Origin: Brachycybe producta
Taxonomy: Eukaryota > Arthropoda > Diplopoda > Playtdesmida > Andrognathidae
Direction of reading: 5' to 3'
DNA length: 64,000 bases
Assembly: GCA_036925085.1 (NCBI GenBank)
Contig: JAUPFP010000041.1
Location: 318,001-382,000 of the forward strand
The position numbers and the translations under genes are program-made. Positions 25,301 through 62,944 of the stretch are shown piece by piece. Below the pieces are notes generated by a model that saw nothing but the letters and a program-made list of their open reading frames with translations, was not told the DNA's origin and ran no database searches. Numbering within the stretch: position 1 is the stretch's first letter; every line of letters starts with the position of its first letter.

Positions 25301-28300
25301 TATCAATTAGACTAATTCTATTTTCAATCGCAGTTTCAATTTCTTTTTTTTTTTTCTGCGTGTGTGACCTTAGCCTTATTATTTTAAATTAGCAATTAAT
25401 ATTAGCCATTAGAAAGTTGTTCAAAAGAGTTTTTCTTTTTTTTAAAAAAATATCTACCTTTCTAAACCAACATGGTTGTCCACGTCTTGTCTTAGATTGA
25501 TCCATTAGATCATCTGCTATTAGCAAAAAAGCTTGAACCTACACGTAAATAAACAAATTGTCAATAATTATGATTATTAAAATTTGTTGTTGCAAAAGTT
25601 GTTGTAATAAAGAAGCATGTACCAATCAGAAATGTTATACTGTACTGGGCGAGTATTCATTTTTAATGATTTCTAGTAGGTTGTACTGGTTTTAGTTTAT
25701 TTTAAGTTAACATTTAAAAAAAAGTGTTTTGGATTGTTTCGGTCGACTCATTTGCATCCTTATCATTATTATTGCTTCACCATACAAGTTGATAAAACAT
25801 TACAAAATACATTTTTAAAATGTTTTTTTACAATAAACATGTGGCTGGTTCCTTTCATTTTGTGTTCAACGGTTTCCACTGTACTTTCTTGAATTTATTA
25901 ATTTTTGTAAATAAATTGTAAATAATTTGTTGTATTTTATTTGCGCCAGATTACAACTTATTTTACCCCACGTGGTGAGAACACATATTTTTAATCGACT
26001 ATAAATTTTATCAGGGCCATAACAAGGGTACACAAGGCCCTTGTCCTTAGTATAAATTTGGTAAGGCTCCTTCAATGTCTTCCTGTTTCCTCATGATTTG
26101 ACACTCGTCACACTTTAACAATACAGATAACACCACAAAAAAAATTAAAAACCTCAATTGTTTGTGTCATTTGTGACGTTATATAATTTAAATATGAAAT
26201 ATCTAACTTTTAAGAAATAGATAATTACGTGATAGAAAAATGGCTTAGAAAATTAATCTTAAATACCACAAAACATTTACAGTCATTTGTAAATTATAAA
26301 ATGTTTAAGGAACTTTGTAATTTTTGGTAACCCTTGACGAAAGGACCAGTAAACCCCACTATAGTTACCGCCATGAATTATGCAAATATATCACACTATA
26401 GCAACTTTTCATGAAACTTCCATGCGATATTAGAAAGCAACTCAAAGAGTTTTTAGTGTAATTTGACATACAACTTGATGAAACTTTCTTTCAATTTATT
26501 GAATGCAATTTGAAGTTTGCATAACAAGTTTTTTTAAAAATTCCATCCTGTTAATTTGGATTATTTCCTTTGTTGTTTTCAATAAATAACTAGTTTCTTG
26601 TGTGATATGGAAGTTTATTAAAAAGTTGTAGTCGTAAGTCATCATTGCAAGTTGAATCACATGTGTTGCATCAAAAGTTGCAATATATATAATAGTTTGC
26701 TTTGTGAGAAGATTCTAATTTTGCGTTTTCAACCCATTGGGATTTTGGGAGCATGGGTTTGCCAAAGCCCAAAAGTTTGATCGGTAACGCGTTTATATCT
26801 GTAAAGGCCTCTATAGGCGCTGTAATATTTCGGTACCTCTAAAACGTAGGGGTTAGGGTGGTCCAAAAAATTAAGACTCATTTTTTTTATAAGCTTGTGT
26901 TTTTTTTAGTAATCTCGACTCATCTGTTTTAAAAAACTACAGGAAAAAATTTTCACTACAATTTGAGCATATTTCCTGGTCGCTCAACTCTTATTAAACT
27001 TTCAATATGTATTACAATGCTATTACATACTATAACAATTAATGTACACTGTATGAAATAATCAGAACAGTTTGTATTTGTGTTTTCAGTCTGTAAGGCC
27101 CATTAACATTAGTGGTGTCTGTTTTACAATGTTCAACAATGCAGTTATTTTAGGGGATGATGATGACAGTGCTTCTCCACCACCTGGAGTAGGGCCTTTT
27201 TAGTCTCTTCATTCTTAATCAGGGGGTCATTGAAAGCTGTTATCATGCCAACTCCTCTCTCCACCCCATCATTAATAAAACAAAAACGTAATAAAAATGG
27301 AATTAAAATAAGCAGTAGGTGAACACATTGGCAAAAAGGCCCAGATATCTCTGCCCCAGTCTAATGTAAATGTTTCATAATCATGACTCATGAGCTTCCC
27401 TAAATATTATAATTCCTACCTGAAATTCCACACAGAACGTTTTTAGACCAAAAGGAACTAAATTACCAACATGCCTCCTTCATTTTTTAAAAATAAATTT
27501 TTACATGGTAAAATGGACCACCCTAGTTGGGGTCCTATGCGCGCCCTTAGGGTAAAAATCGCCACTGAATTTGATTCGTACATGCTGTCCACACCCTTTT
27601 ATTACCAGGATCCTGAAAGTGGTTCGCCACAATATAAATCATACCATTTCGACACACCAACCCATAATTTGCAAACGGAAAAGTTCCTCGTTTGAAAGTG
27701 AATTTGGATTTGCATGAAGCATCTTATAAGCAGCCATCATCGTCTTTCCTCGAATTTTTTTTCCATGTGGCACATTATAATCCAGTACCTATATGAAAAT
27801 AAAATCTATATAAATATTTGCAAGTATAATTGAAATAAATATGTAGATTTACCTCTTTGAAATGTTTATAAAATATTTTTAAATCATTGTAATTATTGTT
27901 CTTTATGGTTAAAGATTGAACGACTGTGTCAAATGTGTCATCAAATATTGAAAGTTCTTTTTCACGTGATACTGAAGGGGTAATGCTCGAAAGCAGCCTG
28001 TATAAAACATGTAAGGTGCAAGTGTTTATTACATTTGGCTTGAGACTAACGATGTGGCCCTTGAGACAGGGCCATATCAATGCGAGGCATTTGTAACTGC
28101 AATTTTTTTTAGACTAAAAATTTTTGTTTAGTTTTAAGCATATTTTTTAAAACTATTTTGCGGTGTGTTGTGCGTGTATAACCGCTTCAAAATACCACTT
28201 GTTGTTTCTCATTCAGGAATCACAGGCTGACTGAGAGAACAAAAACAGCCCAGGAAAGCCAAGGAAAGCCCAAGGAAAGCCCAAGGAAAAGCCAACCGCC

Positions 28301-28843
28301 TTAGTTTTATTTTCATTTTTGCTTGAGATAAATGTGTCATGTTTTGTTATTTTGTACTAGCAATTCGTAGAGATAAAAATTAATTATTTTTCTGTTTGAA
28401 ATATTTTTCTAATTTATTATCTTTTCTTCAACAAACGTGTTTTCATTTTACTTTCTTCATATTTTCCACTGCTAAAAACATTAATTTTCCATTGATTTCT
28501 TGTCAATTTTTAAATTTTCATTGCGATCCATTACTGTCGTCCGACCCCAACAGTAACATACACTAAACAATTTACTTGTTCAAAAACACAAACTTTGCCT
28601 TTTATAAAACATAATCATTAGTCTGATAAAATTGCTATTATACTATTATTAGTCTAAAAGTATAAAATCATTAATAAAACTGTCAACATTTTTGAAAATA
28701 TCAGTAAGTAATGATCAACCAAAATTATGCACTGACCTGAATGATTCGAAATGCAAGTACGGAAATTTTGGACGATGACATATAGACATTTTCAGTCCCG
28801 ACTGCAGTTTGAAGCCGTTAAACAGAACTCCAAATCTTGCCAT
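22390..28843 (-). CDS. FDPS: Farnesyl/isoprenyl diphosphate synthase, intact catalytic motifs
   Basis: Nine exons on the minus strand: 28843-28737, 27997-27853, 27788-27645, 25538-25458, 23954-23823, 23763-23599, 22939-22862, 22792-22658, 22590-22390 (TAA). All junctions are GT-AG and in frame; 395 aa deduced. Catalytic set by residue: VPHGKKIRG with K94 and R97 (IPP binding); first Asp-rich motif DDLMD at 141-145 followed by TRRG (R150, R151); GQSIDM; KYKT at 240-243; second Asp-rich motif DDYLD at 285-289; [15 protein letters not shown]. It makes FPP (possibly GGPP) from IPP and allylic diphosphates in the mevalonate-derived isoprenoid pathway. The positions 5 and 4 before the first motif are F-L, where vertebrate FPPS has F-F, so product length could differ. 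The N-terminus ([18 protein letters not shown]) has no acidic residue in the first 32, suggesting mitochondrial import. Downstream tandem paralogue of the gene at 45.2-52.1 kb. Confidence 0.93.
24178..24974. mobile_element. TIR element (AGGTGGCTGAATAGATATTTA ends) in FDPS intron
   Basis: About 21-bp perfect terminal inverted repeats, beginning AGGTGGCTGAATAGATAT on the left with the reverse complement ending at 24974. No clear target duplication. A related, one-ended fragment begins at about 13484 (AAGGTGGCTTTATAGATATTTA) and shares the TTCGCTTGACKTTTTTGC segment. A younger hAT element sits inside it. Confidence 0.75.
24243..24606. mobile_element. Non-autonomous hAT element nested in the TIR element
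   Basis: Ends CAAGCATGTCAAACTC and GAGTTTGACGTGCTTG, flanked by a perfect 8-bp duplication TTCTATAC (24235-24242 and 24607-24614). The GGCCGCATGCGGCCCGCGG segment near the right end is typical of Charlie-like hAT ends. 364 bp, non-coding. Confidence 0.85.
28245..28300. repeat. Short CCAAGGAAAG minisatellite
   Basis: About four imperfect copies of a CCAAGGAAAG(C) unit in intron 1 of the FDPS gene. Confidence 0.6.
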
Positions 28844-28969
28844 TTCAAGATTAGAATTTTTAGAGCTTGACAAAGAAAAAGGATGAAATATTATTAAACA
28901 CAGATTAATATCAAACCATTATAAATAAAGGCAACAAGATTAATTGGTCATAAAACCAGAACTTAAAAA

Positions 28970-29339
28970 TTATATATATAATATCCCAGGTCTGTGTATC
29001 TATCTATATATCTGTCTCTGAAGTAACACTGTACAACCATTGAAGCATGTCGGAATTTATATAAATTTGAATAAATTAACGGCTTTTTTTTTCTCAAGGT
29101 CAACTATATGTTGCAAGGTTGGAAAGTTTTGGGGGTGGGGGGAGAAAGAGAGAGAAACGTGGAAGGGGAAAAGATTAGAAAGTGTAGAGGGGGGGGGGAG
29201 AGAAACGTGGAGGGAGGAAAAAAGAGGGAGGGGGTGACTGAAATTGAAATGAAAGGAGTAAAAAAGGAACAAACGACGTGCATGCGCACAATTGCCTGTG
29301 AAGTTTGCTCCCGTAATTTATGACGGGTTACCCCACTAG
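28970..29339 (+). mobile_element. Short-form Helitron, copy H4
   Basis: 5' TATATATATAATATCCCAGG; purine block; direct junction GCATGCGCACAATTGCCTG; hairpin with one arm mismatch (CCCGTAA...TGACGGG); CCCCACTAG. It lacks the foldback and the flanking 150-250 bp. H5 follows with no spacer. Confidence 0.78.
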
Positions 29340-30008
29340 TTATATATATATTAAGCCCCGTCTTTCTGTCTTTCTGGACCTAACGCTGTACAAACAAGGA
29401 TGTCGGAATTTATATAAATTTAAATGAATAAATGAACCGCTTTTTTCTCAAGGTCAACTACTGTATATGTTGCACACTCCCCCCATCCAAGAACCACATG
29501 ATATTAAATTGGAGAGGGGAAAAGGTTGAAGGTAGAAGGGGGGAGAGAGAGAAACGTGGTGGGTCAAAAAAGGAGGAAACTGAATTTGATATGAAAGGAG
29601 TAAAAAAAGGAAAAAATGACGCGCATGCGCACACCAGAGAAAATCTCATTTTCACTTTCAAATATAAAAAAGGGGCGGGGATAGAATTTCTTTTGCTTCG
29701 CCCTTTTATGAACGTCATCAATTTCTAATTCGTTTGTTACTTGGTCTGACGTCATAAAAGGGCGGAGGAAAAGAAATTCTAATGCCGCTCTTTCAAATAT
29801 AAAAAGGAGAGTGGAGGGGATAATAGTAGCAAAATTAAACTACAGTTTATCACAGGCAATTGTGCCCAGCATTGAATTTCTTTTGCTCAGCCCTTTTATG
29901 ATCAGACGTCATCAATTTCTAATTGGTTTGTTACTTGGTCTGACGCCATAAAAGGACGGAGGAAAAGCAATTCTAATGCTGGGCACAATTGCCTGTGAAT
30001 TTTGCTCC

Positions 30009-32060
30009 TGTCATTTATTATTATTATTATTATAAGATTTATTCCATAATGCATATACAGTTACCAAGGAGAACAAGCTCATCTTACAGGTCCCCTAAAT
30101 ATATAAAAATACCACAATAAAGCAAATACATAAAAATATACAAAAATACAACATAACAGCAAAGAAAATGTAAATAAATAAACAAACTATTACATATTAA
30201 TTAATTAACTAGCCCTAATCGCTGAACCCTGCATGTATATTGAGAGATGAACTTCTTTTAACCTCAAAGAAAATATTTCTGGGGATGGGGAAAGAACTAC
30301 TTTTTCTGGGAGAGCATTTCATATTGGTATAACCCTGTAGAAAAATGAGAACTTTGAGGTATCCACAGTCTTGCCATCTTAGATGATAATCTTCTTGAAT
30401 GGCTACGTGTTTTTACTGGGACATAAACAAGAAACTGTGACCAGTGTTCACATTGTTCAGGTACAAACAGAAGACCAGATAGGATTTTATAGAGCCATAG
30501 TAAATCATTACGGAGTCGCCTTAACTCTAATGAACACTAATTTTAACATATGCAATCTTTCCCTGTATGATAAATGACTCATACCCAAGATCCTTTTGGT
30601 AAAATGCCTTTGGACCTCCTCAATATCCCGAACTAGAAATGGAGACCAAACTGGGGCTGCATATTCTAGAATGGGTAAGACATAGACCACAAAGGCCCTT
30701 GTCAAAACTATGGAGTTACTATGCACCAAAACCCTTAATAGCATGCCCCTCTTTGGTGACCTCTTGCTGCTAAACGAGCACAATGCAATGAAAAATTCAG
30801 AGAAAGATCAAAGATCACCCCTAGATCTTTAATGGCATTGTCCACCAGAATCAAATTTCCATAGCACTGGTATCTCACCAAATCATCAGACCGTCCATAT
30901 CTGACTATTTTGCACTTAGGGACTGCTAAAGACATCTTGTTTTTATTGGCCCAAACTGTTATTTTATCCAAAGTAGCTTGTAAAAGCAATGGATTTGTAC
31001 CAACACATTTTACATCATCTGCAAACAGCAGAGTGGACACTTCATTACCATTAGGAAAATCATTTACAAATACACAAAATAAAATTGGTCCTAATACACT
31101 TCCTTGGGGGACACCACTAGAAACACTCACAGCATGCGAAAATGAGCCCCTAAGTTGCACTCTCTACGATCTACTAGATAAAAAATCTCTTATCCAAGAC
31201 AGTAGCCTACTGGATCACCCAATCCCCATTTGACTAGTTTTTGAACTAATATTTGATGGCTAACACAATCAAAAGCCCTTGCAAAGTCCAGATAAATAAT
31301 ATCCACACTAGATCTAGCTTCCAAAGCTTTGGTAATGGAATCAACACATTCTAATAACTGTGTTGTCCCAGTCCTATTTGGTAGAAAACCATCTTGCTTA
31401 GATGACAGCAATGAACACGACTGAAAGTAGTCAATAACATATTTTCCCACAGCTTTCTCAAATACCTTACACAAAACACATGTCAAAGAAATTGGCCTGT
31501 AATTTCCAGGTGATCTAGGATCCCCAGATTTGTGTACTGGAACCACAAAAGCCATTTTCCAGTCTAATGGAACACTGCCCGCATGTAGAGAAAACTTAAA
31601 TAACCAACTCACTGGAACCATTAATTCTCTAGCACAGTTGTGTAAAACAGAAGCCGGTATGTCATCCGGCCCTGCAGAACAACTGGGCTTTAATTTTGAC
31701 AAAGCTTGAAATACAAAACTCTTACTAATGATGTTCTGAGCACCCAAATCAAGAAACGTAGTTTCAGATAGTACCCCATCATTATCGCCATGGGTAAAAG
31801 CTGACCCAAAATTTTCACTCAATAGCTGAGCTTCATTTTCATCTTTAATAGCTAGGTCCCCATCTGGTTTATACAGAGGTGTGATAAAGAGATGACAAGT
31901 CTCTATTACTAACAATTAGAGACTCTTCTTCAGACAGACGTTTGGAAACCAATTCGCGACACGATTCGGAAACATCTTTATACAATAAAAGATCAGTAAC
32001 CATTCCTGATTTTTTTCCACTTTTTCCAAAGATGCAATTTTTGCTGATAGGCTAATTTAA
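30009..32060 (-). mobile_element. Jockey/CR1-type LINE, 5'-truncated, inserted in Helitron H5 hairpin
   Basis: Minus-strand non-LTR element. Its 3' end is the (TTA/TAA)n tail at about 30014-30033, as expected for 3' simple-repeat tails; its 5' end is truncated at about 32060. Flanks are the two halves of the Helitron 3' hairpin, with an ATTTATT/ATTTCTT near-repeat as possible target duplication. Coding content is given separately. Confidence 0.8.
30508..32015 (-). pseudogene. LINE reverse transcriptase, frameshifted
   Basis: Minus-strand remnants in order: 32015-31915 (ELVSKRLSEEE), 31915-31190, 31160-30735 and 30783-30508. RT signatures: SAGPDDIPASVL, NYRPISLTCVLCKVFEK, IIYLDFARAFDCVSH (first catalytic Asp), GVPQGSVLGPILF, and LLFADDVKC (the FADD catalytic pair). 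The C-terminal domain has VLPILEYAAPVWSP. Between the second and third pieces the frame changes near 31195 and a stop follows, and further shifts occur at both outer junctions, so it cannot make a working enzyme. No endonuclease domain remains. Confidence 0.85.
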
Positions 32061-32559
32061 TTTCTTATGACGAGTTACCCCACTAGTATGTAAATAAAAA
32101 GAAACATTAAAGCAAGTAATCATTTATTTTGCCCGTGTAGCCCCCCTCATAGAAATGTACTGACACTCTTCAACCCTTGATTCACCTTCCTTTTTTATAT
32201 GGCAAACTTTTAATTGCAGGTTGCTATTTCTACACGTGCTCTCTTCATTTATACATTCTGGGTAAGCTTGTCATGTGCTGATAATTAAAGTTGTTTTGGA
32301 CGTAGCTTTTAGAGCTAAAAGGCATTCTATTTCAAATAATTGGCGAGTGTCGTTGGCCACCTATGGAGGTTGGCACAATCAATCTACCTTGCATTGGCAC
32401 AAGTGTTTCTCTATGGAGCCCTCTTCCTTGACATTTGAGAAGCAACGTCAATAGGTTATCTGGAGTTTACCATGCAGGCTATTTTCAAAACTCTTGTCAA
32501 AATAAAAGAAATTATAATTTCATCATGCAAAAGTGCTAAGCCTACGGTAGGTCGGCATA

Positions 32560-33060
32560 AGTGAAGACATGCTCGTGAGGTATTATGTGACAGGAGGATG
32601 CCAATAAAACTAAAGGGCAAGTTTTATAGGACAGTGGTTAGACCGGCTTGGTTGTATAGATCTGCATGTTGGGCAGCCAAGAAGAGGCAACAGGATAAAC
32701 TGTAAGTGGCTGAAATGCGAATGCTAAAGTTTATATGTGGGGTAACAAGAGAGAATATGATCAGAAACATATTTATCAGAGAAAAAGAGTGTGTAGGGGT
32801 GCAAGCATAGTAGAAAAGATGCGGGAAAATAGACTGAGGTGGTTTGGGCATGTAACTAGGAGTGGGGAGGATGAGCTGCTTAAACACTTGATGAGTTTGG
32901 ACCTGGGGGTTAAAATGGGTAAAAAGGAAGACTCAAACAAGCTTATAACATGGGATATGGGGGCTAGGAGTTTGGCACAAAATCAGAAGAAGTGCAGAGA
33001 TCGAACCCCTAAGGCTAACCCTGTGCATTGCCAAAAAAAAAGGTGCAAGAAATGATTACT
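32560..33060 (+). pseudogene. RTE-like LINE C-terminal fragment
   Basis: Plus-strand relic of the region after the reverse transcriptase: KLKGKFYRTVVRPAWLY, VAEMRMLKFICGVTREN, VEKMRENRLRWFGHVTR. These motifs are shared by a widespread LINE family (RTE/CR1-like). Stops and frameshifts occur after about 32700. No catalytic RT core is present. Confidence 0.7.
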
Positions 33061-34068
33061 CGAAATTAGCACAGTAACTATGATGAAGATGAATCAACTG
33101 TTGCAGTGACTAGTGAAAAATACAATCAACAATTTTGATTTACTGTTCCATTGTATTTTGTATTCGAAAAAAAAAACACTTTCAGTTGTATTTTGTTTTT
33201 TGAAACATAAATTACATAAATTCAGTCAAGTTATTTATAATCATACAGTTCATTGTGCACAGGCAACACATTGCTGAGTATGCCCTAGGAGCATGTCCCC
33301 ACTGTTACTAATGATGTATTTGAAAATGACAAAATTAGCGTAATTTGTTTTTTGATGTTTGGTAGTTAAGAATATGGTTAAACATTACTGGTAGAACATT
33401 GTATGTCTTCTAATTGACACCATTAAAAATGGAATTGAAATCAAACTACAAGTGTTATTTTCCTTCATTTAAAAAATGAACACATGATAAACTAGTGATT
33501 ATTTGCATTTGGTTTGTTAAGACATCCTTCAAGCATAAAAAGCTTCAACTAGATTGACAATATTTGCTATGCGTCCAAGAAAAAACTACATGTACAATTG
33601 CCAATGTATTCAATTCACTTGCAATGCTTGCAAGCGTTTGTTGCATACTATTATATTTTCAAGATCACTGTGCCAGTTTCCCGTCATATTTTTCTCTAAA
33701 TCTTGCAAAAAAAAATTAGCCAGTGTGTTCGCCACTTTATTGCGCAATCGAATCTATAATATTTACAGCGGAATTCTTTGCAATATTTTTCATTATGTTT
33801 TTATTACACGAAATTTTTCAGAAATATAACTAGTGATATTTTTTGCCTTCATATACGAGCGTAACATTTTATAAGGAAAACTTAAAATGTGTTGTTGGTG
33901 TTCACTAAGGCTTGGCTTCATATAGTGAAAACCAAATGCTAATTGCTAAGTGGCCATACAAATTAACCGTTTTTAGCGGGCCGTTTAAAATGAGCCTAAA
34001 GTTCAGACTTATGAACGTTAATAAAGACAATATAAAATCAAATTTAACAATGAATACATGATGAATAT
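33061..34068. other. AT-rich gap, no gene
   Basis: No spliced exon, no recognisable transposon end. Confidence 0.45.
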
Positions 34069-34719
34069 TTGGCGCAATAATTCATATAAAATTTATTTTA
34101 TATATGGTTATCAAACTAAAAATTCCATCACAAGGGTTAAAACTACCTTCATTTGAAATTGCTTACCGACTAAATTTAGTATGATGAGAGCCACAAGAGA
34201 GTTGACTGAACGTTTAACAGCTGCTAAACAATATACTGTACATGTACATTACATAAGATAAAATAAAATAAAATGCAATGTTTTCTAAAATATTCCAAAG
34301 TGACACAAAATACGTCACATTATCCAAATACAAGCTCTGAACTATGAACTTTGTACTAAATCAAAATGAAATTCAATAAATTCTAAAACAAATGCAAATA
34401 TATTTATCTTTCTTTCGTATAGATATCATATAGATCTAATCTATTCACTTTCTAAATGCAGCCTATTTTTCAACATTGTTATTTTCTAAGAGCACCAAAA
34501 TACAATTCATAGGTAGGCGCCAAAAAGTGTACTAATAAATCGCATCATAATGTGTAATTATAATTATAAATACTATTAAAAACACTGTAATTGTTTTTAT
34601 TGCAACACACATTCAATGATGTGTATAATTAACCTGCTATATGTTCTTATGTTGTTTTGTGACACAGCAACTTTTCTTGTTTTTGTGGCCAATATACACT
34701 GTATACCATTTCCTCACAG

Positions 34720-35028
34720 ATGAGTGACCACGACAACCCTTTAACAGTAAGATGTTCAGAGGTTTTGCAATCAAAACGAGTGATAACAAAAATAAAAGTG
34801 TCAAATCAATACTAAAGTCAAAAGAAAGAGAGAGAGAGAGAGCTATCACATGCTGGACCTGTCCTTTTATTCCCTTTCTAGTCTCCAAACATTGATGTAC
34901 CACATGATCTAATATCCCGGAAAGGATATATCACCCATGACAAGGAGGACAAGTGTGTTGTCCATGGACAACACCCCAACCTCCTCCTGCAAGTGGTACA
35001 AAAATGGATAATACCAGAAGGTGAATAA
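34720..35028 (+). CDS. Possible small two-exon ORF in duplicated segment A
   Basis: Exon 34720-34746 (MSDHDNPLT) lies between a good acceptor (TTTCCTCACAG) and donor (GTAAGA). A second exon at 34882-35028 follows a CTTTCTAG acceptor, in phase, and ends TAA (58 aa total). Key segments: DVPHDLISRKGYITHD and HGQHPNLLLQVVQKW. I do not recognise it. It could be a captured gene fragment. The same pair of exons exists in copy B with changes that keep the frame open. Confidence 0.3.
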
Positions 35029-35447
35029 AAGCGACATTCCTGGAATTGTCTTTTACCAGGTGATTAAAATAGTTTATAGAATTTTATATTATTATGAAAT
35101 TATTAAAGAAACCAGTTCCCAATAGTTAATTACTTATTAAAGATCAATTATCAATTTTCCATAGTTAAAAAAATATTACTAGATTGCAGAATACATTCTG
35201 CGAGTGCAGCGAGCGACCAACATTTCATAATTTCTTCTAAGGTTCCCATTTATTTTTATTTCATGCGTTTTAGGCTGACCCTTCTACAATCCCGACAGGG
35301 AAAAAAAAACTTTTCTTTTCGTTGGTGCCACCCCCCAAAAACTGCTGCTCTCCTGGGCGGACCGCCCCCTCGCTATGCCACTGCAGCCCATCACCGTTAA
35401 TGAAAAACTTCCTTACAATAAAATGCAACAGTAAAATAAAAAAGTAC

Positions 35448-35557
35448 CAATTCGTTAAAATTTTAGTTGTTGAATACCATAGTACTGAGAGTCGCAACGA
35501 ACCACTAAAGTAGTGAAGTGCAATGGTACGACTCAAGACTCCAGCTACGGTCATCAT
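35448..35557 (-). pseudogene. Extra copy of the presequence exon (exon 1) of the prenyl-synthase paralogue
   Basis: 110 bp, the same length and donor (AATTG|GTAC) as exon 1 at 52127-52018. It encodes a basic, hydroxylated, acid-free leader ending WYSTTKILTN (the gene has HYSTTKLLRN). No exon 2 follows; a hAT-like GGCGGTCCGCCC-bearing sequence does. Probably a captured exon fragment. Confidence 0.7.
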
Positions 35558-36044
35558 TTTCTATTCCGATTTACAGATTAACTTTTAAGAAACTTCAACG
35601 AGGTTTAAAACACAAACCCTTCAGAATTCACCATTAGATACAAAATGACGTTTAAAAATCTTGTCGAGAAGCATTAACGTCTTAACAGATAATATTTTTA
35701 AACATATAATACATAATAATGAATCACTGTGTCAAAAATCTTTGTCTAGCCGTATTTCTTGTCATAGGTCTAGCCAAAAGTTAAAATAATAATTTAATAA
35801 ACCGTACGGTGTGTGTGTATGTGTTCATAAAACATGACTCATAATTGAAAGGTACGCGGACGACCCAACTACTTTTTAAATTGGCTTTGTGAGTGTTGCA
35901 GGGGGTGGTTGGAATATTTTAGTTATCTCACCGTGTCTCAAATGGGTTGACAAATATTAAGCTTGTGTCATTTTGTCTGATAAAAAAGGGATAATAAAAG
36001 AATACAAGAACAATTTTGTTTGAACTGTTGAGAAAGTTTGCAAG

Positions 36045-37431: not shown

Positions 37432-37677
37432 TTAAAAATATTTATCAATAAATGAAATGATACGCTTCCTCGCTGCATCCCGTTCCTCCGGTTTCTTCGG
37501 CGTGGGTCGGAACTGGTCCACGTCAATCCGTTGTCGGTCCTGGTCGTTTCTAATGATCCGGTTCCAGATGGCCCTGTTGGTCCCTGGCTCCTGGTTCTGC
37601 TGTCTCCTCACTTCCAGATACTCCTTGATCGGCAGACTCGGCCATCCTCTTTTCGAATTTATCCAATTTAGAGGTTG
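37432..37677 (-). CDS. ORF3, overlaps the ORF2 end in the +1 frame
   Basis: About 81 codons with no ATG, opening after a TGA at 37680-37678. It overlaps the last 128 bp of ORF2 and runs to TAA at 37434-37432. It contains WPSLPIKEYLEVRRQQ and RAIWNRIIRNDQDRQ, which read more like real protein than the tail of ORF2. Either ORF2 carries a frameshift lesion near 37.65 kb or a second frameshift is programmed. No homology recognised. Confidence 0.4.
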   Translation of the reverse strand, partial: QPLNWINSKRGWPSLPIKEYLEVRRQQNQEPGTNRAIWNRIIRNDQDRQRIDVDQFRPTPKKPEERDAARKRIISFIDKYF

Positions 37678-39136: not shown

Positions 39137-39159
39137 TACTTTGGGGCTGAGTGGCGCCC

Positions 39160-40581: not shown

Positions 40582-40682
40582 TTCTGACGTCGATGTTTTC
40601 TTTCTGCCGCGTGCTTTTCAACACGATTTTCGTAGCTTATGGAGTAACAAGGTATTCAACTGCCCAGCTCCTCCACCAAATT

Positions 40683-42776: not shown

Positions 42777-42851
42777 GGAAACCCTAGCTTAACACAGCAG
42801 CTTATGTTACAACTTTTACTGCCGCAGAAAATAAACGCCTTGTTCAATAAT

Positions 42852-43276
42852 TTAAACTCCCTTGTAAATAAAACCCCAGAAGTAAATAAAGATGCCTAGT
42901 GGTAACTTAAAATCTGGAGTCTCAGCAATCTTAAGGATTCGTTCCTGCAAACGCTTAGTATGTTTCCTATAAACATCATCGAGTCGCAATTCTATAAACA
43001 AGTCATTGACTATTACGACACATTCTCTTTCAGGTCTGCCATAATTTTCCTAAACACATTTCAACATTTGTACAAAGTTTTTCTTATACTTTTTTTCAAA
43101 TCACTGAGTATGAATTTAAATCTTTATGAAGTCATCCATACCTGAAATATTTTCCTTTGTTCACTGTTACATATTTGCAGTGCCGTTAGAATAGGCCAGG
43201 CGCATTTTCCTTGCCGGATATCTGCCGGTCATATTCCCATTGCAAAAGAATTCCCGAAAACGTCCAAAATATCATT
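42852..43276 (-). pseudogene. Tandem duplicate of exons 8 and 9 of the prenyl-synthase paralogue
   Basis: Exon 8b (43276-43142, 135 bp) and exon 9b (43049-42852, 198 bp) match exons 8 and 9 of the gene at 45.2-52.1 kb in length and splice sites. 8b has NDILDVFG where the gene has GDVLDIFG, keeps the Lys of GKCAW, but has an in-frame TGA at codon 16 (43231-43229). Exon 9b is open to TAA. No other exons lie between the two sets, so this is a partial duplication or an unused alternative 3' end. Confidence 0.85.
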
Positions 43277-45232
43277 CTAACGATACAAAAAAAAGATTGA
43301 AGGAAATTGAACAGTAACAGACATATAATGCAAAGAACGAACAATACATTGAGTATGGCACATTATGCTAATAGTACAAACGTTTGTAGACAGGGCTGGC
43401 CCGTTCAATAGATGGTCACCTAGGGCGCAAAGGTCTTAAGTTCTAAAATCTAATTTTTAGTGTTTAAAAATAATTGTTTAAATCAAATAATTTTTTTTTA
43501 AATAAAAAATAATATTATATAAATATTTTATGTAATATCAAAAGTATATTTAAAAAAAATATGACAATCATTTGTCGGCACATTATGTGATATGAATGGG
43601 TGTAAATATGTAAGCTTGTTGTTTTTCTTCTCACTTTAAGTGAAATTTAACCACTTTGATGCCATTCCACTAAAATGGCGTATATTGCTTTTTAACTACT
43701 AATGATCCACAACATTTATAAATGTGTTTAAGACATACTAGCTTGTTTAAAATATCTGTTTCTATTGTGTTATAAATTTGAGTTTCACCTTCAAATTACA
43801 AATAAAATAAATGGCAGCTAATTTTCTTTTTCAATTCGAACACCATGGGCACTACCTATTGTAAATGCTTCATTAAGTGGCTATACTTCCCAAAATTACT
43901 TTGAAAAATCTCCACAAAGAAGAGATGACCCGATGTTAAAGAAAAAAAACGTTAATTTTTAAAATACACAGTCGCGGCAATATATGTTTATTTTTCATAT
44001 TTAAAGTTGTCCAATTCTGATGGGTCAAAGTGCAATATGCACGTGGAAGCATGTCATGATATAACAAGTAAAACACAACTAGGTATATCTGCTTTCCAAA
44101 CGTAAAGCTTCTTGGCAAACGAGATGTCATATAAAATTTGTCCTCTGCACGACTTAGCCAATCAGACAACAGGACATGCCATGAGTCCATGACAATGAGT
44201 TTGAACTGCTCCATGGATTTTCATTCCGTCTCCAACACCATCTTAAAAATTGAAACTGGTTGAAAATGTTGGATAAGCCCATTTTAAGCAGGATTCCCTT
44301 TTTCCATAAATCTTCAAAGTAGGCTCAACTACATGTATTTTCAAGACGAACTTCATTTGAGCCCAGCTTAGGCGATGATCTATGAAGAAAAACTATCAGT
44401 TGACTAGAACTATACCATCTATACAGAAACTGCAACGTCTTAAAACCGAAGTGTCACTTCTGTTTAAACTTACATGTTTTGTCTTATATGTATGATTGTA
44501 CTTAAGCACAATTCAGACACAATGATTAAGTAACGAAGAAACATCAATAATCACTTGGTACATTATTAAAAATGTATCTTGTCTTGTAGTATTTGTTCAA
44601 AGTAAACATTTCTACAGAGCAACCTTTGTTATAACTTAAAAGTTATAAGTATATACTACAATATAGAAATTTAACGCAAAAACTTGAACAATGTTTATGA
44701 ATGGGCGTGTAAACAACGAATTACTTTCCATAATAATTTGAAAAGTATTGCTTTTAAAGTACAGGCATAAAAAGCAAAAGGTGAAATATTGCAAAGTTTC
44801 AAATTTTAATAAAACGTTTAAATATTAAATACATCATAATAATGTGGCTTGAAATTCGCCCATATTCATTAACTAACACCAGTGTGGGTGGGGATGGGCT
44901 AATGTTCACCCACAAAATTGGAAATCATTTTTTTTACGGTGGTCTAAATTGGACCAAAACTTAAAGAAATTAGTGTAATAGAAGCTCTAAATTGTTGCAA
45001 AGAACATGCATTTCCCCATGTTTCTAACAATCTTTTGCATATTCATTCTATTTCTTCCATCTTTTAGCATCTTATGATTTTGTAGCCCCCCAGATTGAAA
45101 TCCTAGCTGCACCACCGACAAAGACACTTTCTTTGTAAAGAACTTTGTATAAGAACCAAATAACTTTGTAATATTATGTTTACGTTTTATTAGTAGGCCT
45201 ACTTGTGTTATAATTTTCACTTGTTCAATGAT
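43277..45232. other. Sequence between the duplicated 3' exon sets
   Basis: AT-rich, no exon seen. The stretch at about 44165-44275 (CAGGACATGCCATGA, ATTGAAACTGG(T/C)TGAAAATGTT) recurs at 60575-60670, marking an unnamed dispersed repeat. Confidence 0.45.
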
Positions 45233-48200
45233 TCAGTTTTTTTTGTAAATAAATTCCAAGATGTAAATAAAGATGCCTGGTGGTAACTTAAAATCCGGAG
45301 CCTCAACAATCTCAAGAATTCGTTCTTGCGAATTCTTAGCATGTTTCCTGTAAACATCATCGAGTCGCATTTCTAAAAACACGTCATTGACTTTCGCGAC
45401 ACATTCTCTTTCAGGTTTGCCATAATTCTCCTAAAACATTTCAACATTTGTACAAAGTTTTTCTTATACTTTTTTTCAAATAAATATTAATTTTAATCTC
45501 GAGGAAGTTAACCATACCTGCAATATTTTCTTTTGTTCACTGTTACATATCTGTAGTGCCATTACAATTGGCCAGGAGCAGTTTCCTTCTCGGCTATCTA
45601 CCGGCAATTTCCCAACTTCAGAAACACTCCCAAAAATGTCCAGCACATCGCCCTAATAATTAAGGGATGAGAAAAACTAAAACATTCAACTGCAAAGAAA
45701 AAAAATTAACAAACAATATTTGTAAAAAAATTTTAGAATTACGGTGGAAATACAAATTTGCTTTTTTCAATTACTAATTAAATCATGTTTTCATTTGAGT
45801 CTTATCTCTTGTATAGGTTTCAGTTTCAGCTTGTAATTATAAACAAAATACTATAAACATAAACGAGAAAATGGCCATTAGTTTTGGTTTTAAAGCTACA
45901 TTCCCATTGCAAAGCTACAACAGATACTGCACTTGTTGTTGCTGTGCAGGTGTTCCCATTCCACTGCTACACTGCTCTTATTCTTGCTGCTAGCCAATCA
46001 GGTGCAGATAAGAGGATGTGATGTCATAATAGTAAGCCACACCTCTTGTATGGGGTTTATCATTTCCTTTTGCCATAAAACACTTACAGAAAAAATGTGG
46101 TCACTTCTGTAATTGGCCCTCTTGAGGAAATAGAATATAGGGAGGGAATGTGTTTATTATTATTGGCTGTTTTACTACTGCTTTGTTACTTTTCTACTGA
46201 AATAACCAACATGTACGGTTCCCCTACTGAACTTTACAACTCTCATAAAAGTTGTCAGTAGGTCGTACTTTGTGACGTCATTGGGTCGTAAAGTAGCAAT
46301 AACGTAGCTTTAACTGGTGAGTGGGAATGTACCTTTAAATGTATCCCTCACTTCCACTGTTAACGTTTTTTCATTATATAAAAAAGTCACAAATTCAATA
46401 AGAACCTAACATTTCTTAAAGAGAACATTACAGAAATTCCTCCAGAAATTTCTTGTCAAAATATTGTCAAGACTTAACCAACGATTACCAAAATGATTTT
46501 TTAAATTAAAAATAAGTCATTCAAATCACAAAAGTGAGTCACCAAACAACGCCATTTTAAATTTCAAGAAACAAAAGTCTACTCGTCAAGTTAGTGGCAA
46601 AGGTTGTCACCATTTCCCTACTCATATTCAACATTTCAACTCAATACAGCCTTCCAATCAACACGAGAGCCACATGGGCTGGTGGGATAATTTAAATATT
46701 CAATCCATAGTACTTTGGCATATGGACTTTTATGTCCCTCTACCATAGGCCTACTTGGCTGCTAGCAGAGTACTAATTGTAATTGTAACTGTACTTTGAA
46801 ATGAATAGGGAATACATGTATTTGAATAGTGAATTAAAAGTAATGTGAGGTGACAACATCAAAATACAAGTAGAAAAGTATATTTATTTGGGGAGGGGGA
46901 GGGTTATTGCCAATGTCTGTTGTTTGGTGGCGCATCTATCCATCCATTTATGTGAAGTCAACTGATTTTTAATTTTTTAAAATTATATTAATGACTTATT
47001 TTTAATTTTAAAAATCGTTTTTTTAATCATTGGGCAAGTCTTGACAATATTATGACAAGAAATTTCTGAAGATAATGGCCTCTTTAAGAGGCTAGCGGCA
47101 TGAAGAAAATGATTATGTAACAATGTAGAGCTCTTGTTACGGGGCTCAAGTGTAGAATCTCTTAGTTCGAGCGGGTACCGCTTTTCGCTAAGAGATTAGC
47201 GTAATACAACCTGAGTCTAGACTGGTGCCAGGGTCGTTCTCCTAGATATTTTGTGGTATTGACGATGCTGGAAGAGAATGGTTAAGACAGGAAAGACGAA
47301 TGCAGATTGACGATATACTTATTTTATTACATTCAATCATTAAGATGTAATGAAACAGAGAAGAGTTGTTACATGCTTGTTACATGCTGTTGCAGCATGC
47401 TTTCGCCACTGGACCATTGAATGAGTTATAACTTCATGTTTCGATATCAGAGAATGGACCCAGAATATATAGAAACATGGTCTTTTATACCTAGGGCCTG
47501 TGTACACCTTTTCAGGTGTACCCATGCCCCAGGGACCATGCTTCGACAGGTTTCCATCCGCCGATACCAGAACCAGGATGTGTCTTGTAGCTTTGGGGTC
47601 TTCAAGAGGAAGGGATAGGGACTCCAGGGACCCCCAGGCTATGGGAAGAACAGAAAGGTAAAATACAGGGTGTTACAATTATGATGCAATATTTTATATA
47701 GGCATTTAAACTGGTGTGTTTTTGGTTAATATGCATGCAATCCGATATGAAACGTAATTTAAAGTGCAATAAGCACTCAAATATACTGTGAATCCATTGA
47801 TACTTTTGCGAAACCATGTTATGAATCCTTTTCTTTTTAAAGAAAGTTTGAAAATAGCCTACATGCAAACTCCCATAGAGAAAAACGATGCTAGCATTCT
47901 TTGTGGAGATTTTTTAAAGTAACTTTGCGATGTAGCCTCTAAAGGTTTAACATCTTTATTGGTATACTCTGTTTTGAGCACAATTATTTTTGAAAAGTAA
48001 CTTAATGTAAAATAAGCACTCAAATATTCAGTTCATCAGATGAACAGTGTGCACCAAAAACAAACGAATGTAAACGAAAAATGAACACACCATGTTAAAC
48101 TTACATATATAGGCCTATACTGTATATTAGGTATATGATCATACACAATCTCAGTATTTGTCGATAGACTCTTAAAATATCCTATATGATGGTTACAATT

Positions 48201-51200
48201 GTTTTTATGAAACAAGAAATATCAAATGTTACCAAATCAGCCTCCAACTTTGCTAGAAGCGATGAAACATGTTTCGCTTGTGTATATGCCACAGGATCCT
48301 TTATTCCAAGCTAGAAAATTTTAAATAAGAGAATTAGCTCACACTATATTTTGGTTCATGTCAGAACTCTCAAAACTCGCCATCAACATTGGAATTGCAA
48401 TGGATCCGTAAACAACAAGGCTCGTATTCAAATTAGCCACCTTTTCAAGGTTCTTAAAAGTAAAATTGGCAAAAGATCGTGTTTTGCAAAACTGTGATGT
48501 CAGCTGTAAGTCCAAACTTTGGCCTACACACGTTTCCCAGCAAATCTATCAAATTTTGTAAAGAAAATTTCTAGGCTTACATAGAGTGTTTTTACAATTA
48601 CGTACAATCACGTATTGCCCATACAAACTGCCGCTGCCACAAGGGCTTATAAAACTAAGCAATGCAAATATGCAAGAACATGCTTCACAGATATTCAATA
48701 CCTTGTTAATTATTTCAATCAATTGTAGATAATACGGTTTATCGTGGAAATATCTTTTTAGTAGTTCAAATAGTCTCGAATACAACAGAACTACATCCAC
48801 AACTGCACGCAATCCGATATCATTCTAAACAGTAAATAAAACACAAATTTAACTTAAATGCAGAAAAAAAAAGCAAAAAGGAGTTTTTTAAATGCTCTAA
48901 AAGCTCTAAAAATGTTGCAGGAGTGCTCAACTGGCCCTAGAAGTCCTAAAACCCTTGGAAAAGCACACAAATCCAAGAATTTTTAAAATTCAAAAAATTG
49001 GTCAAAAACCAAATCTACAGACTTGACTTTTTTAAAAAAATAAATGACCAAAAGTCGAAATTTTTTTATATTCTCTAAAGCATACATGTGCAATGTATGG
49101 CTCGTGTACCGCATCTGGCATGCCCTGATTTTATCCAGCCCGTGAGGACTTCTCCAAATTTCTCTTAATCTGGTCAGCCTGCATATTTCCATATTTCCAG
49201 AACCTACCCCATTTCAGCACTAGAACATATAAACCAATCACAGTGATCCTCTGCTCAAAATGACTGGTTTTTATTGCTCTTGTAGCTGATGTCTTAATTT
49301 TGTTCGTAAAGCGAACTTTAAAAAATGACATTCGTTACAATAAACATCATATGGTACTATGGCCCGCGGATATATTTAAAATTCGCTATGCCTGGTTAAA
49401 ACTTTTTTTTATTTCATTCGTAACTAAATACGACCCTTTCACAGAATAATATGAGTGCCTGTTTGGTGATATTTGCGATTACGAATATGCATATATTGCG
49501 AGAGTAGCCTACAACGGCAGTGATACAGGGTGCAGGCGCCACCATCAAGTTTTTCCCGGTAACAGTTTACAAGTCCAGTCCGGGATTGACGTAATTGTTA
49601 GCAGAAACCTTAATTAGCAGAGTGATTAGAAGTGCAGCAATCAACAGTTAAGTTTAGTTTAGTAAGTTTTGTTCTTTTATGCCAATACTGATTGCTTTGC
49701 CAGTGGTACTAATATAATGTTAACACTTTCCCAAAAGCCCAGATTGCAAATAAAAATGAGGTATTAGTTCTAGGACATACCATTTATGTGTATTACATGT
49801 AAATGGTATACCCCTCCTGGAAAAATCATGCAGAATTCTGTAAGGTTTTATTCCTTTTCTTACTGTGCATTGACTTTCTGCAGAACTTTTAAAATTCTTC
49901 ATATTTTTATTCTGTAGAATTTATCTGCACACTGTGTATAACATTTCACCTGGAAATTGTAATGCTATTATAATAGTTAAATCTGCAGAACAATTCTACA
50001 GGAAATATTGCACAGCATTAGCTGTGTACTCAAAACCCAACAGAGAAAAGCTGCAGAAACAATTGCCATTTTAATATGTTTATTCTGCAGAATTTATTTG
50101 CACACCATGCATAACATGTCATTTGGAAATTGTAATGTTGTTACATAGTTAAATTCTGCAGAACTATTCTGCAGAAAACATTGCACAGCATTAGCTGTGT
50201 ACTCAAAACCCAACAAAGAAAACCTGCAGAAATATTTGTGATTTTAATATTTTTATTCTGCAGAATTTCTCTGCTTACTGTGCATAAAATCTCATTTGAA
50301 AATCCTAATACATGGTTAAAAACATTTACAAATGTATTAGGGGATTTCCCCTTTTGAGTTCAGTTATTTCATTTTTTTGAGTGGGTGTTTATTTTGAGTT
50401 TGTTTAGTTTTGGAAGTGTGGGTGTATGACTTCAGTTTGTAACGGTCATTTCATTACATTGTTTAGCTTATTGTCTGTCTGTCTTGCTTCAGAAAAGATA
50501 AATTTTCTTAATTTTTGAAAATGGAAATGGTTTAATCCTATTCTTTCATTAAATGTTTCTTGGATTGATTAATAACATTTTTATTTTTTTATTTAAACTT
50601 TCCATTTTTAAGTGTAGGCATTGTTTTCACTGTGGCGAAATTAATTTGCAGGGTTAGAGTTTTGTGAAAAGGATGAGGGTATATACAGAAACATAGCTGC
50701 AGAAATATTCTACAAAATTCTGCAGAGATAGTCTGCATAGCTCTGCAGATATAGTCTGCATAACTCTGCTGAAAGATTCTACAACTACTCTGCAGAAAGA
50801 TTCTGCATAATATAATCAACATAAAAATTCCTGAAGAAACAGTGTTCCAATTTTAGTCAGAAGGCCTCTGTAGAAACATGTAGATAAAATTATACAGAAT
50901 CCTGATATAAAATTTCCAGGAGGGACATGTTTCTCAGGAACAACACAGTAGTTTCTATCTGCAAATGTAACCAGCATAATCATATTTTGAGGAAAATAAA
51001 TTTTAACTTAGATTAAACTAGTTAAAATGTGTCATATTGCTTGGTAAATACAAGTTTAAAAATAATCAGAAACGAATTACCTTACACATAAACAAAGTTT
51101 GTATAATGTAGAATGGTAAATTTCAAAATTTAACTAACATTTTTATACCAACACGGATACCCGTATCTGGCTTCAGAATTGTCTACAATGTCATCCACAA

Positions 51201-52127
51201 TAAGAATAAATCCACGAACCTAATGCAAAAAAGAAAACAATACAACAGACTCGAAATATCGCTTTTTTCGTTTTGCGTTGTGACTTACAATTTCAAATGC
51301 CCATCCTACTACTTGTGCAAGAAATATTTCTTCATCCGACATGAGATGTGGATTCTTGTGTAGTTCTCTGAACGAGTTGAAGGTCGTCACGCCATGCACT
51401 AATATTTCGTGTGGAAGATTATACTCCAACACCTAATTAAGCAAAAACAAACAATCTTCGAATAAACTTATAAACAAAAAACATTAATACTGAGTAGATA
51501 AATCTGCCTTTGTAAAATGCTGAAAAAAATCTTTTAAGTCATAATCATCATTTGTTGTTAAGTCACTAACAATACGTGGAAAGCTTTTCAAAAAATACAC
51601 CCGATCACATTTTGCTTTTGAGGTTGGACCACTTGCAGAAATGGTTTTACTGTAAAGGAAAAATACAAGTATTATTATTAGCAATATGGATAACAATTTT
51701 TCACAATCAGGCGTGAAAATCAATCGTTTTTAATGTTTTTACATTAAAAACGCATGAAATCCACTCATTTTTACTTTCTATCAGATATTGATTTTTTCTT
51801 TCTTTCAAAAAAGTTCTTTAAAAGATTTTATGAACTCAATCAGGTGCTGGGATTATAAATTTTAGTGATGAATTCTCCGTTTAGTGTAAAAAAAGCAAGA
51901 AACACATTATACACCTTATTAAAAAATTAAAAAATAATTACGTGTAATTAATACGGCGCTGGTTATTACAACTTACAACTATATTTATAGGGTATTAGGA
52001 AACAAAAATTACTGTACCAATTTCTTAAAAGTTTAGTCGTGCTGTAGTGCTGCATTGACAGCCACGACGAGCGACTAATGCGGTTAAGATCAATACTACG
52101 GCATACGACATGAGCTATGTTCATCAT
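45233..52127 (-). CDS. FPPS-derived, terpene synthase-like protein (diverged prenyl-synthase paralogue)
   Basis: Nine exons on the minus strand: 52127-52018, 51649-51508, 51432-51289, 51219-51139, 48824-48702, 48545-48381, 48310-48233, 45652-45518, 45430-45233 (TGA). They sum to 1176 bp and 391 aa with no stop; exon lengths nearly equal those of the FDPS gene at 22.4 kb. Two junctions (51508, 48381) need GC-AG donors. Kept: first Asp-rich motif DDIVD at 141-145. Changed against the paralogue: GKKIRG to EILVHG (K94 to I, R97 to H), Q134 to R, TRRG to ARYG, KYKT region to ANLN, second motif DDYLD to GDVLD (282-286), GKCSW to GNCSW. These are IPP- and diphosphate-binding positions. Inference: it no longer condenses IPP but may ionise an allylic diphosphate, as in insect FPPS-derived terpene synthases. 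Leader MMNIAHVVCRSIDLNRISRS has one acidic residue, ends HYSTTK and looks mitochondrial. AATAAA on the minus strand at 45191-45186. A catalytically dead paralogue is the alternative. Confidence 0.85.
45893..46335. mobile_element. TIR element with TA flanks, in intron 7 of the diverged synthase
   Basis: Ends AAGCTACATTCCCA and TGGGAATGTACCTT with TA on each side; 443 bp, non-coding. Confidence 0.55.
47135..47677 (-). repeat. Solo LTR-like element, family with TGTAACACCC start, copy C
   Basis: Minus strand: TGTAACACCCTG...; CATAGCCTGG; GGTGTACACAGGCCC; TATAAAAGACC (TATA box); AATAAAATAAG; end ...CCCCGTAACA. Its first half matches copies at 52680-53387 and 57796-58575; the second half is different, so it is a distinct subfamily. 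Confidence 0.6.
49080..49680. repeat. Dispersed repeat shared with 58800-59160
   Basis: Blocks such as TATGGCCCGCGG(A)TA, AAATTCGCTAT(G/C)C, TGCATATATTGCGA(G/A)AGTA and CATCAAGTTTTTCCC recur in the same order at 58.9-59.1 kb. Both are next to an ATTCGTTACAATAAAC block that ends the solo LTR at 58575. Family unknown. Confidence 0.55.
49811..50924. mobile_element. TIR element filled with CTGCAGAA tandem repeats
   Basis: Ends CCCCTCCTGGAAAAATCATG and, reversed, CCCTCCTGGAAATTTTATAT, followed inward on both sides by ATTCTGTA. Inside are about 2.5 copies of a 170-178-bp unit (starts about 49909, 50087, 50260), each with TTCTGCAGAATTT..TGCAC, GCACAGCATTAGCTGTGTAC and CAAAACCCAACA, then a run of short TCTGCA words at 50690-50815. 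Sits in intron 4 of the diverged synthase. Non-coding. Confidence 0.6.
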
Positions 52128-60985: not shown

Positions 60986-62944
60986 TATTTGGCTCAATAA
61001 TTCATATAAAATTTATTTTATATATGGTTTTCAAACTAAAAATTCCATCACAAGTGTTAAAACTACCTTCATTTGAAATTGCTTACCAACTAAATTTAGT
61101 ATGATGAGAGCCACAAGAGAGTTGACAGAACGTTTAACAGCTGCTAAACAATATACTGTACATGTACATTACATAAGATAAAATAAAATAAAATGCAATG
61201 TTTTCTAAAATATTCCAAAGTGACACAAAATACGTCACATTATCCAAATACAAGCTCTGAACTGTGAACTTTGTACTAAATCAAAATGAAATTCAATAAA
61301 TTCTAAAACAAATGCAAATATATTTATCTTTCTTTCGTATAGATATCATATAGATCTAATCTATTCACTTTCTAAATGCAGCCTATTTTTCAACATTGTT
61401 ATTTTCTAAGAGCACCAAAATAAAATTCATAGGTAGGCGCCAAAAAGTGTACTAATAAATCACGTCATAATCTGTAATGATTAATTATAAATACTATTAA
61501 AAGCACTGTAATTGTTTTTATTGCAACACAAATTCAATTATGTGTATAATTAACCTGCTATATGTTCGTTCTTATGTTGTTTTGTGACACAGCAACTTTT
61601 CTTGTTTTTGTGGCCAATATACACTGTATACCATTTCCTCACAGATGAGTGACCACGACAACCCTTTAACAGTAAGATGTTCAGAGGTTTAACAAAGATA
61701 AAAGTGTCAAATCAATAGTAAAGTCAAAAGAAAGAGAGCTGGACCTGTCCTTTTATTCCCTTTCTAGTCTCCAAACATTGATGTACCACATGATCTAATA
61801 TCCCGGAAAGGATATATCACCCATGACAAGGAGGACAAGTGTGTTGTTCATGGACAACACCACCTCCTTCTCCTCCTGCAAGTGGTACAAAAATGGAAAA
61901 TACCAGAAGGTGAATAAAAGCGACATTCCTGGAATTGTCTTTTACCAGGTGATTGAAATAGTTTATAGAATTTTATATTATTATGAAATTATTAAAGAAA
62001 CCAGTTCCCAATAGTTAATTACTTATTAAAGATCAATTATCAATTTTCCATAGTTAAAAAAATATTACTAGATTGCAGAATACATTCTGCGAGTGCAGCG
62101 AGCGACCAACATTTCATAATTTCTTCTAAGGTTCCCATTTATTTTTATTTCATGCGTTTTAGGCTGACCCTTCTACAATCCCGACAGGGAAAAAAAAACT
62201 TTTCTTTTCGTTGGTGCCACCCCCCAAAAACTGCTGCTCTCCTGGGCGGACCGCCCCCTCGCTATGCCACTGCAGCCCATCACCGTTAATGAAAAACTAC
62301 CTTACAATAAAATGCAACAGTAAAATAAAAATGTACCAATTCGTTAAAATTTTAGTTGTTGAATACCATAGTACTGACAGCCGTAACGAGCCACTAATGT
62401 CATGAAGTGCGATGGTACGAACCGTACGACTCAAGACTCGAGCTACGGTCATCATTTTCTAGTCCGATTTACAGATTAACTTTTAAGAAACTTCAACAAG
62501 GTTTAAAACACAAACCCTTCAGAGTTCACCATTAGATACAAAATGACGTTTAAAAATCTTGTCGAGAAGCATTAACGTCTTAACAGATAATATTTTTAAA
62601 CATATAATACATAATAATGAATCACTGTGTCAAAAATCTTTGTCTAGCCGTATTTCTCGTCATAGGTCTAGCCAAAAGTTAAAATAATAATTTAATAAAC
62701 CGTTCGGTGTGTGTGTGTGTTCATAAAACATGACTCATAATTGAAAGGTACGCGGACGACCCAACTACTTTTTAAATTGGCTTTGTGAGTGTTGCAGGGG
62801 GTGGTTGGAATATTTTAGTTATCTCACCGTGTCTCAAATGGGTTGACAAATATTAAGCTTGTGTCATTTTGTCTGATAAAAAAGGGATAATAAAAGAATA
62901 CAAGAACAATTTTGTTTGAACTGTTGAGAAAGTTTGCAATCATT
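60986..62944. repeat. 2-kb duplicated segment, copy B
   Basis: Partner of 34069-36044, about 26.9 kb away, same orientation. Carries the plus-strand two-exon ORF region (61645-61920) and the minus-strand presequence exon copy at 62455-62337. Ends at AGTTTGCAA, where copy A runs into a Helitron 3' end. Confidence 0.85.
62337..62455 (-). pseudogene. Third copy of the presequence exon
   Basis: 119 bp; like 35448-35557 but with a 9-bp in-frame insertion (LSRTVRTIALH for LSRTIALH). Ends WYSTTKILTN at the same AATTG|GTAC donor. Not followed by exon 2. Confidence 0.7.

Follow-up and report, generated by a model that had tools for sequence, protein, structure and literature searches.

Beside a canonical farnesyl diphosphate synthase (FDPS) gene in the window, the 64,000-nucleotide stretch of DNA analyzed here, lies a second, FPPS-like gene that is probably best read from its sequence as a paralog under long constraint that no longer performs chain elongation. 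This non-elongating duplicate may act as an FPPS-derived (IDS-type) terpene synthase, a reading to which we give a probability of roughly 0.4.

The paralog comprises nine exons on the minus strand (52127..45233), which join into an open frame of 391 amino acids without a stop or frameshift. Exon 1 (52018..52127) encodes a leader, at a guess of mitochondrial type, in which 18 of 37 aligned residues are those of FDPS exon 1. The gene model continues with exons 2 (51508..51649), 3 (51289..51432), 4 (51139..51219), 5 (48702..48824), 6 (48381..48545), 7 (48233..48310), 8 (45518..45652), and 9 (45233..45430), the last ending in a TGA stop. The first base of an AATAAA (45186..45191, minus strand) falls 42 nt beyond this stop; the nearest one past the FDPS stop is 227 nt away. 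The predicted protein matches the Pfam trans-IDS family polyprenyl_synt (PF00348) with an E value of 6.3e-39 (134 bits, cutoff 27), and, homology apart, the chance that 391 random codons are stop-free at the composition of the window is ∼4e-13. The paralog is a real gene. Searched against prokaryote genomes, it returned 12 pattern matches with no relatives and no ortholog, and an FDPS query against viral contigs returned six, likewise with no relatives and no ortholog; Rfam at the gathering threshold gave zero matches. Intron 4 of the paralog contains tandem repeats of 173 bp (49901–50303) and 23 bp (50697–50810), each containing CTGCAGAA.

The canonical FDPS gene (22390..35557, minus strand) also has nine exons, and encodes 393 amino acids. 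Its exons 1–5 lie at 35557–35448, 27997–27853, 27788–27645, 25538–25458, and 23954–23832, and its exons 6–9 at 23763–23599, 22939–22862, 22792–22658, and 22590–22390. The protein matches PF00348 with an E value of 6.3e-70 and keeps all of the catalytic residues checked. Exon lengths in the paralog (110, 142, 144, 81, 123, 165, 78, 135, and 198 nt) depart from those of FDPS (110, 145, 144, 81, 123, 165, 78, 135, and 201 nt) by one codon in exons 2 and 9 only, and intron positions and phases are identical throughout. Half of the 16 introns across the two genes are 64–87 nt long. The proteins are identical at 136 of 388 aligned residues (35%) and differ at the remaining 252. Judged on this shared structure, the common origin of the two genes is by duplication, and the gene model is settled as a statement of ancestry. 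A tree of six sequences places the paralog beside the window FDPS on the longest branch (1.17), but with a support of only 64, which is not decisive.

A 95% identical copy of 34066–36043 is present at 60986..62939, so that FDPS exon 1 occurs again at 62455..62330 on the minus strand. This second exon 1 sits upstream of the paralog and is potentially a stray or alternative first exon. Elsewhere in the window are exons of dynein regulatory complex subunit 4 (18264–19354, plus strand; best PDB match of the joined query, E = 3.3e-68), two reverse transcriptase pieces (RVT_1; 30735–31915, minus strand), and a retrotransposon gag open reading frame of 485 amino acids (Retrotrans_gag, with a CCHC knuckle; 37550–40617, minus strand). 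Beside the gag frame, in the same interval and strand, a frame of 547 amino acids has no Pfam match and carries five 45-bp units with 98% matches.

The proposal that the paralog is a complete nine-exon, 391-residue FPPS relative is borne out by the nine exons that read through, the FDPS phases, and the PF00348 match. Its description as intact is correct in that there is no stop or frameshift, but it overlooked the donors of two of the eight introns, which are GC: those of intron 2 (AAG/GCAGAT, 51506..51507) and intron 6 (ATG/GCGAGT, 48379..48380). All eight acceptors are AG. In FDPS, by comparison, all eight donors are GT and none is GC. Both GC donors coincide exactly with FDPS exon junctions, and on a home-made nine-base consensus they score 6 and 7, within the 5 to 7 of the FDPS donors. 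Two substitutes were considered and rejected. Ending exon 6 at an alternative GT gives a protein of 403 amino acids with 12 extra residues that have no FDPS counterpart, where the GC is the exact FDPS junction; an in-frame GT 21 codons before the end of exon 2 would remove a stretch whose last 11 residues include 6 identical to FDPS, as counted by eye. The status of the predicted paralog as intact is conditional on these two GC-AG introns. They also bear on the unlikely reading of a gene that worked until recently and is now in decay, poorly spliced and lately stripped of some allylic residues. Such decay would fit the presence of GC donors in two of eight introns against none in FDPS and the stop in an adjoining partial copy. 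However, GC donors are capable of being spliced, those found here score as FDPS donors do, the frame is undamaged with every acceptor in place, and any neutral time is necessarily short.

The last point follows from a simulation of neutral change over the 1,173-base coding sequence, with 400 runs at each divergence, a transition/transversion weight of 2, and an assumed 0.1 indels per substitution. At 0.02, 0.05, and 0.08 substitutions per site, 33%, 5.5%, and 0.75% of the runs stayed free of stops; once frameshifts were counted as well, undamaged runs fell from 5.75% at 0.02 to 0.75% at 0.03 and 0 of 400 at 0.05. Since the divergence from FDPS is far beyond this simulated neutral survival, protein-level constraint acted on the paralog through most of its past, and a brief recent neutral phase may be compatible with the simulation. 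The hydrophobic core is retained. Of 98 columns in which all five reference FPPSs (listed below) carry a hydrophobic residue, the paralog does so in 90; with the columns defined by four references instead, the counts are 92 of 100 for the paralog and 98 of 100 for the window FDPS.

Downstream of the paralog, a partial copy (43276–42855, minus strand) consists of exon 8 (43142..43276), exon 9 (42855..43049), and the short intron between them, and nothing else. Its exon 8 encodes NDILD and GKCAW and has an in-frame TGA, and because of this stop we rejected the possibility that the paralog uses the 43-kb exons for an alternative 3′ end; its exon 9 shares 47 of 65 residues with the paralog. AATAAA is absent within 300 nt past the copy. 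Identical bases between copy and paralog number 103 of 135 in exon 8, 78 of 87 in the intron, and 167 of 198 in exon 9. When 42839–43266 is aligned with 45220–45642, the intron is more alike than exon 8 and its second half contains a long identical run, which hints at gene conversion.

The first residue of the second Asp motif is Gly (GGC) in the paralog, Asn (AAT) in the partial copy, and Asp (GAT) in FDPS. Because the partial copy and FDPS both carry the Lys of GKCSW (K266 in human numbering), its change to Asn in the paralog postdates the split from the partial copy, so the allylic side of the paralog was still changing late. Between paralog and partial copy, dN is 0.185 and dS is 0.318, giving a dN/dS of 0.58 (bootstrap 0.32–1.08; 110 codons, stop codon omitted), a value that does not demonstrate strong recent constraint on the paralog. 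Both this ratio and the derived Asn are what a gene in recent decay might display.

We compared the paralog with the window FDPS, human FPPS, the beetle PcIDS1 (8a6u), a moth enzyme (6b02), and Artemisia FPS2. These five references share 73 invariant columns, of which the paralog keeps 42 and changes 31. The IPP pocket was taken as K57, R60, Q96, R113, F239, and R351 (human numbering throughout), modeled on the PcIDS1 homoallylic site as given in PMC10396970. None of the six is kept, versus 42 of the 67 other invariant columns (Fisher p = 0.0043), a p value that is descriptive in that the six were picked from the literature once the losses listed in the first-pass annotation were known. With G56 and Y204 added, the counts are 0 of 8 versus 42 of 65 (p = 0.0006). 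The equivalents of K57 and R60 in exon 3 are now I94 and H97, and that of Q96 in exon 4 is R134, corresponding to K95, R98, and Q135 of FDPS. Further changes are F239 to Glu, Q240 to Ala, Q242 to Leu, Y204 to Val, and R351 to Lys, the last a mild one; E93, a network residue adjoining the pocket, is kept. All five FPPS motifs (GKxxRG, RRG, KYKT, FQxQDDxxD, and GKCSW) are altered: RRG becomes RYG in exon 4, KYKT becomes NLNT in exon 6, the FQIQ ahead of the second Asp motif becomes EADL in exon 7, and GKCSW becomes GNCSW in exon 8. Exon 7 is the least FDPS-like, with 5 of 26 residues identical and none of its four invariant residues kept. The alignment thus confirms every residue loss reported earlier, with K94, R97, and Q134 understood as paralog positions, and the loss of IPP binding drawn from them is well supported (p = 0.004).

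With the pocket emptied, it is very improbable that the paralog remains a prenyltransferase, regular or irregular, that forms a C–C bond through a second-substrate site built anew. The mealybug study has points on either side: transIDS11, with NDYYD, coupled regularly and the D308N variant of transIDS5 kept C10 coupling, but changes to transIDS5 K120, a lysine near the IPP diphosphate, reduced elongation to FPP (PMC10960109).

On the allylic and metal-binding side, the paralog keeps 8 of 12 residues (D103, D104, D107, R112, T201, D244, D247, and K257) and loses K200, Q240, D243, and K266, a proportion like that of the remaining invariant columns (34 of 55, p = 1.0). The allylic-side roles of K200, T201, Q240, and K266 are those known from work on human FPPS. 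Roles of the other residues follow PMC10396970. The first Asp motif, DDIVD in exon 4, is unchanged; the second, GDVLD in exon 8, has lost its first Asp and retains the second and third. Losses are therefore concentrated in the IPP pocket, and the allylic residues show no sign of having been specially spared. A preserved allylic-ionization site, as first claimed, is right for DDIVD and the other retained residues but overstated for the whole: the site is only partly preserved because three of the lost residues serve the allylic side, namely D243, which opens the second motif, and, as known for human FPPS, K200 (second lysine of KYKT) and K266 (lysine of GKCSW).

This partial preservation lends itself to another reading, possible though somewhat doubtful, in which the paralog would be catalytically silent, keeping the fold and neither elongating nor ionizing, perhaps as a binding or regulatory partner such as a heterodimer subunit of FDPS. 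The allylic set is no better kept than other columns, the Mg-B ligand is gone, and the hydrophobic core persists. Published work supplies parallels: the one blattodean FPPS-like protein tested, EneoA, is without IDS or TPS activity (PMC13143122), mealybug transIDS10 and transIDS12 are without coupling activity (PMC10960109), and noncatalytic small subunits exist in heteromeric prenyltransferases (PMC7839719). The intact first motif of the paralog sets it apart, since neither motif is intact in the blattodean clade and DDxxD is missing from the plant small subunit.

The mechanism that we favor is that a local FDPS duplicate was retained for a long time as a protein-coding gene and has probably lost chain elongation, a view supported by the gene model, by the constraint on it, and by the IPP-pocket losses. 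We infer that such a protein could bind a preformed allylic diphosphate, whether GPP, FPP, or GGPP, through DDIVD, the R112 and K257 equivalents, and Mg A and C, with the Mg-B side weakened or rearranged, and release diphosphate without IPP, as an IDS-type terpene synthase would. The FDPS intron plan, the open frame, the hydrophobic core, and the retention of DDIVD, R112, T201, D244, D247, and K257 argue for this reading, as do the fully replaced IPP pocket, the nearby AATAAA, and the LlTPS, PsTPS1, and mealybug precedents described below. Arguing against it are the loss of K200, Q240, D243, and K266 from an allylic set kept at the rate of other columns, the late K266-to-Asn erosion, the two GC donors, and a Mg-B ligand position occupied by Gly rather than by Asp or by the Asn found in NSD-type motifs; the PcIDS1 D319A variant loses Mg-B, and LlTPS2 retains both motifs. 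Terpene synthase and silent paralog stand almost level, with the former slightly favored. A more specific version is quite improbable: that an FPPS-derived terpene synthase, in a lineage outside those with demonstrated enzymes of this type, ionizes its substrate through a rebuilt metal site in which new acids E278 and D280, with D283 and D286, just before the lost first Asp of the second motif on the same helix, would take part.

If active, the paralog would be another animal case of a change from elongation to terpene synthesis, and its diverged second motif would test the need for the Mg-B site; if silent, it would show cleanly that losing the IPP pocket is not by itself enough to call a terpene synthase. 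A gene of this kind is expected in an insect and more interesting outside insects. The matches listed from open-licence literature include no account of the paralog or of FPPS-derived terpene synthases in animals other than insects.

Insects offer precedents for both active and silent FPPS copies. Replacement of IPP residues is a criterion for picking insect terpene synthases (PMC10962984, PMC12376265). The sandfly LlTPS1 keeps 3 of 15 IPP residues and the flea beetle PsTPS1 4 of 15, both being characterized terpene synthases, and flea beetle TPS and IDS genes have exon structure in common (PMC10962984). LlTPS2 has 9 of 15 IPP residues substituted, conserves both Asp motifs, and is active in vitro, with negligible transcription in the samples tested (PMC12376265). 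Phyllotreta PsTPS1–4 and Lutzomyia LlTPS1/2 resemble the paralog in FPPS-like origin and replaced IPP-contact residues, and those of Phyllotreta also in conserved exon structure. Unlike LlTPS2, the paralog has GDVLD and lacks two more lysines, a comparison made with the insect enzymes by their descriptions.

Seven FPPS-like proteins of the mealybug Planococcus citri, transIDS8–13 and 18, are described in PMC10960109 as having a canonical first motif and an altered second motif that starts with ND; coupling was assayed for three of them and observed in one. They share with the paralog the canonical first motif, the altered second motif, and low similarity to FPPS. By these descriptions, however, ND is found in all seven, where the full gene here has GD and only the stop-bearing partial copy has ND. 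In the mealybug FPPS transIDS5, replacing the first Asp of the second motif (D308N) left C10 coupling as strong as in the wild type, impaired the step that follows, and eliminated irregular coupling, and D309N abolished regular activity (PMC10960109). The paralog keeps the Asp equivalent to D309 and has Gly at the position of D308. D243, lost in the paralog, corresponds to D319 of PcIDS1, where the D319A variant prevented Mg-B coordination (PMC10396970).

Among silent relatives, the blattodean FPPS-like clade is present in all Blattodea with both motifs disrupted, and its termite member EneoA has neither IDS nor TPS activity (PMC13143122). The paralog is likewise a diverged FPPS duplicate kept as a gene, but its first motif is intact where the EneoA type has both disrupted. 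The Heliconius TPS-family enzyme HcydOS was wholly inactive (PMC7815096). Canonical FPPSs (human, Phaedon PcIDS1) resemble the paralog in fold family and length, and the neighboring FDPS in intron plan. In contrast to these enzymes, the paralog has 31 of the 73 invariant columns changed, all six IPP-pocket residues included.
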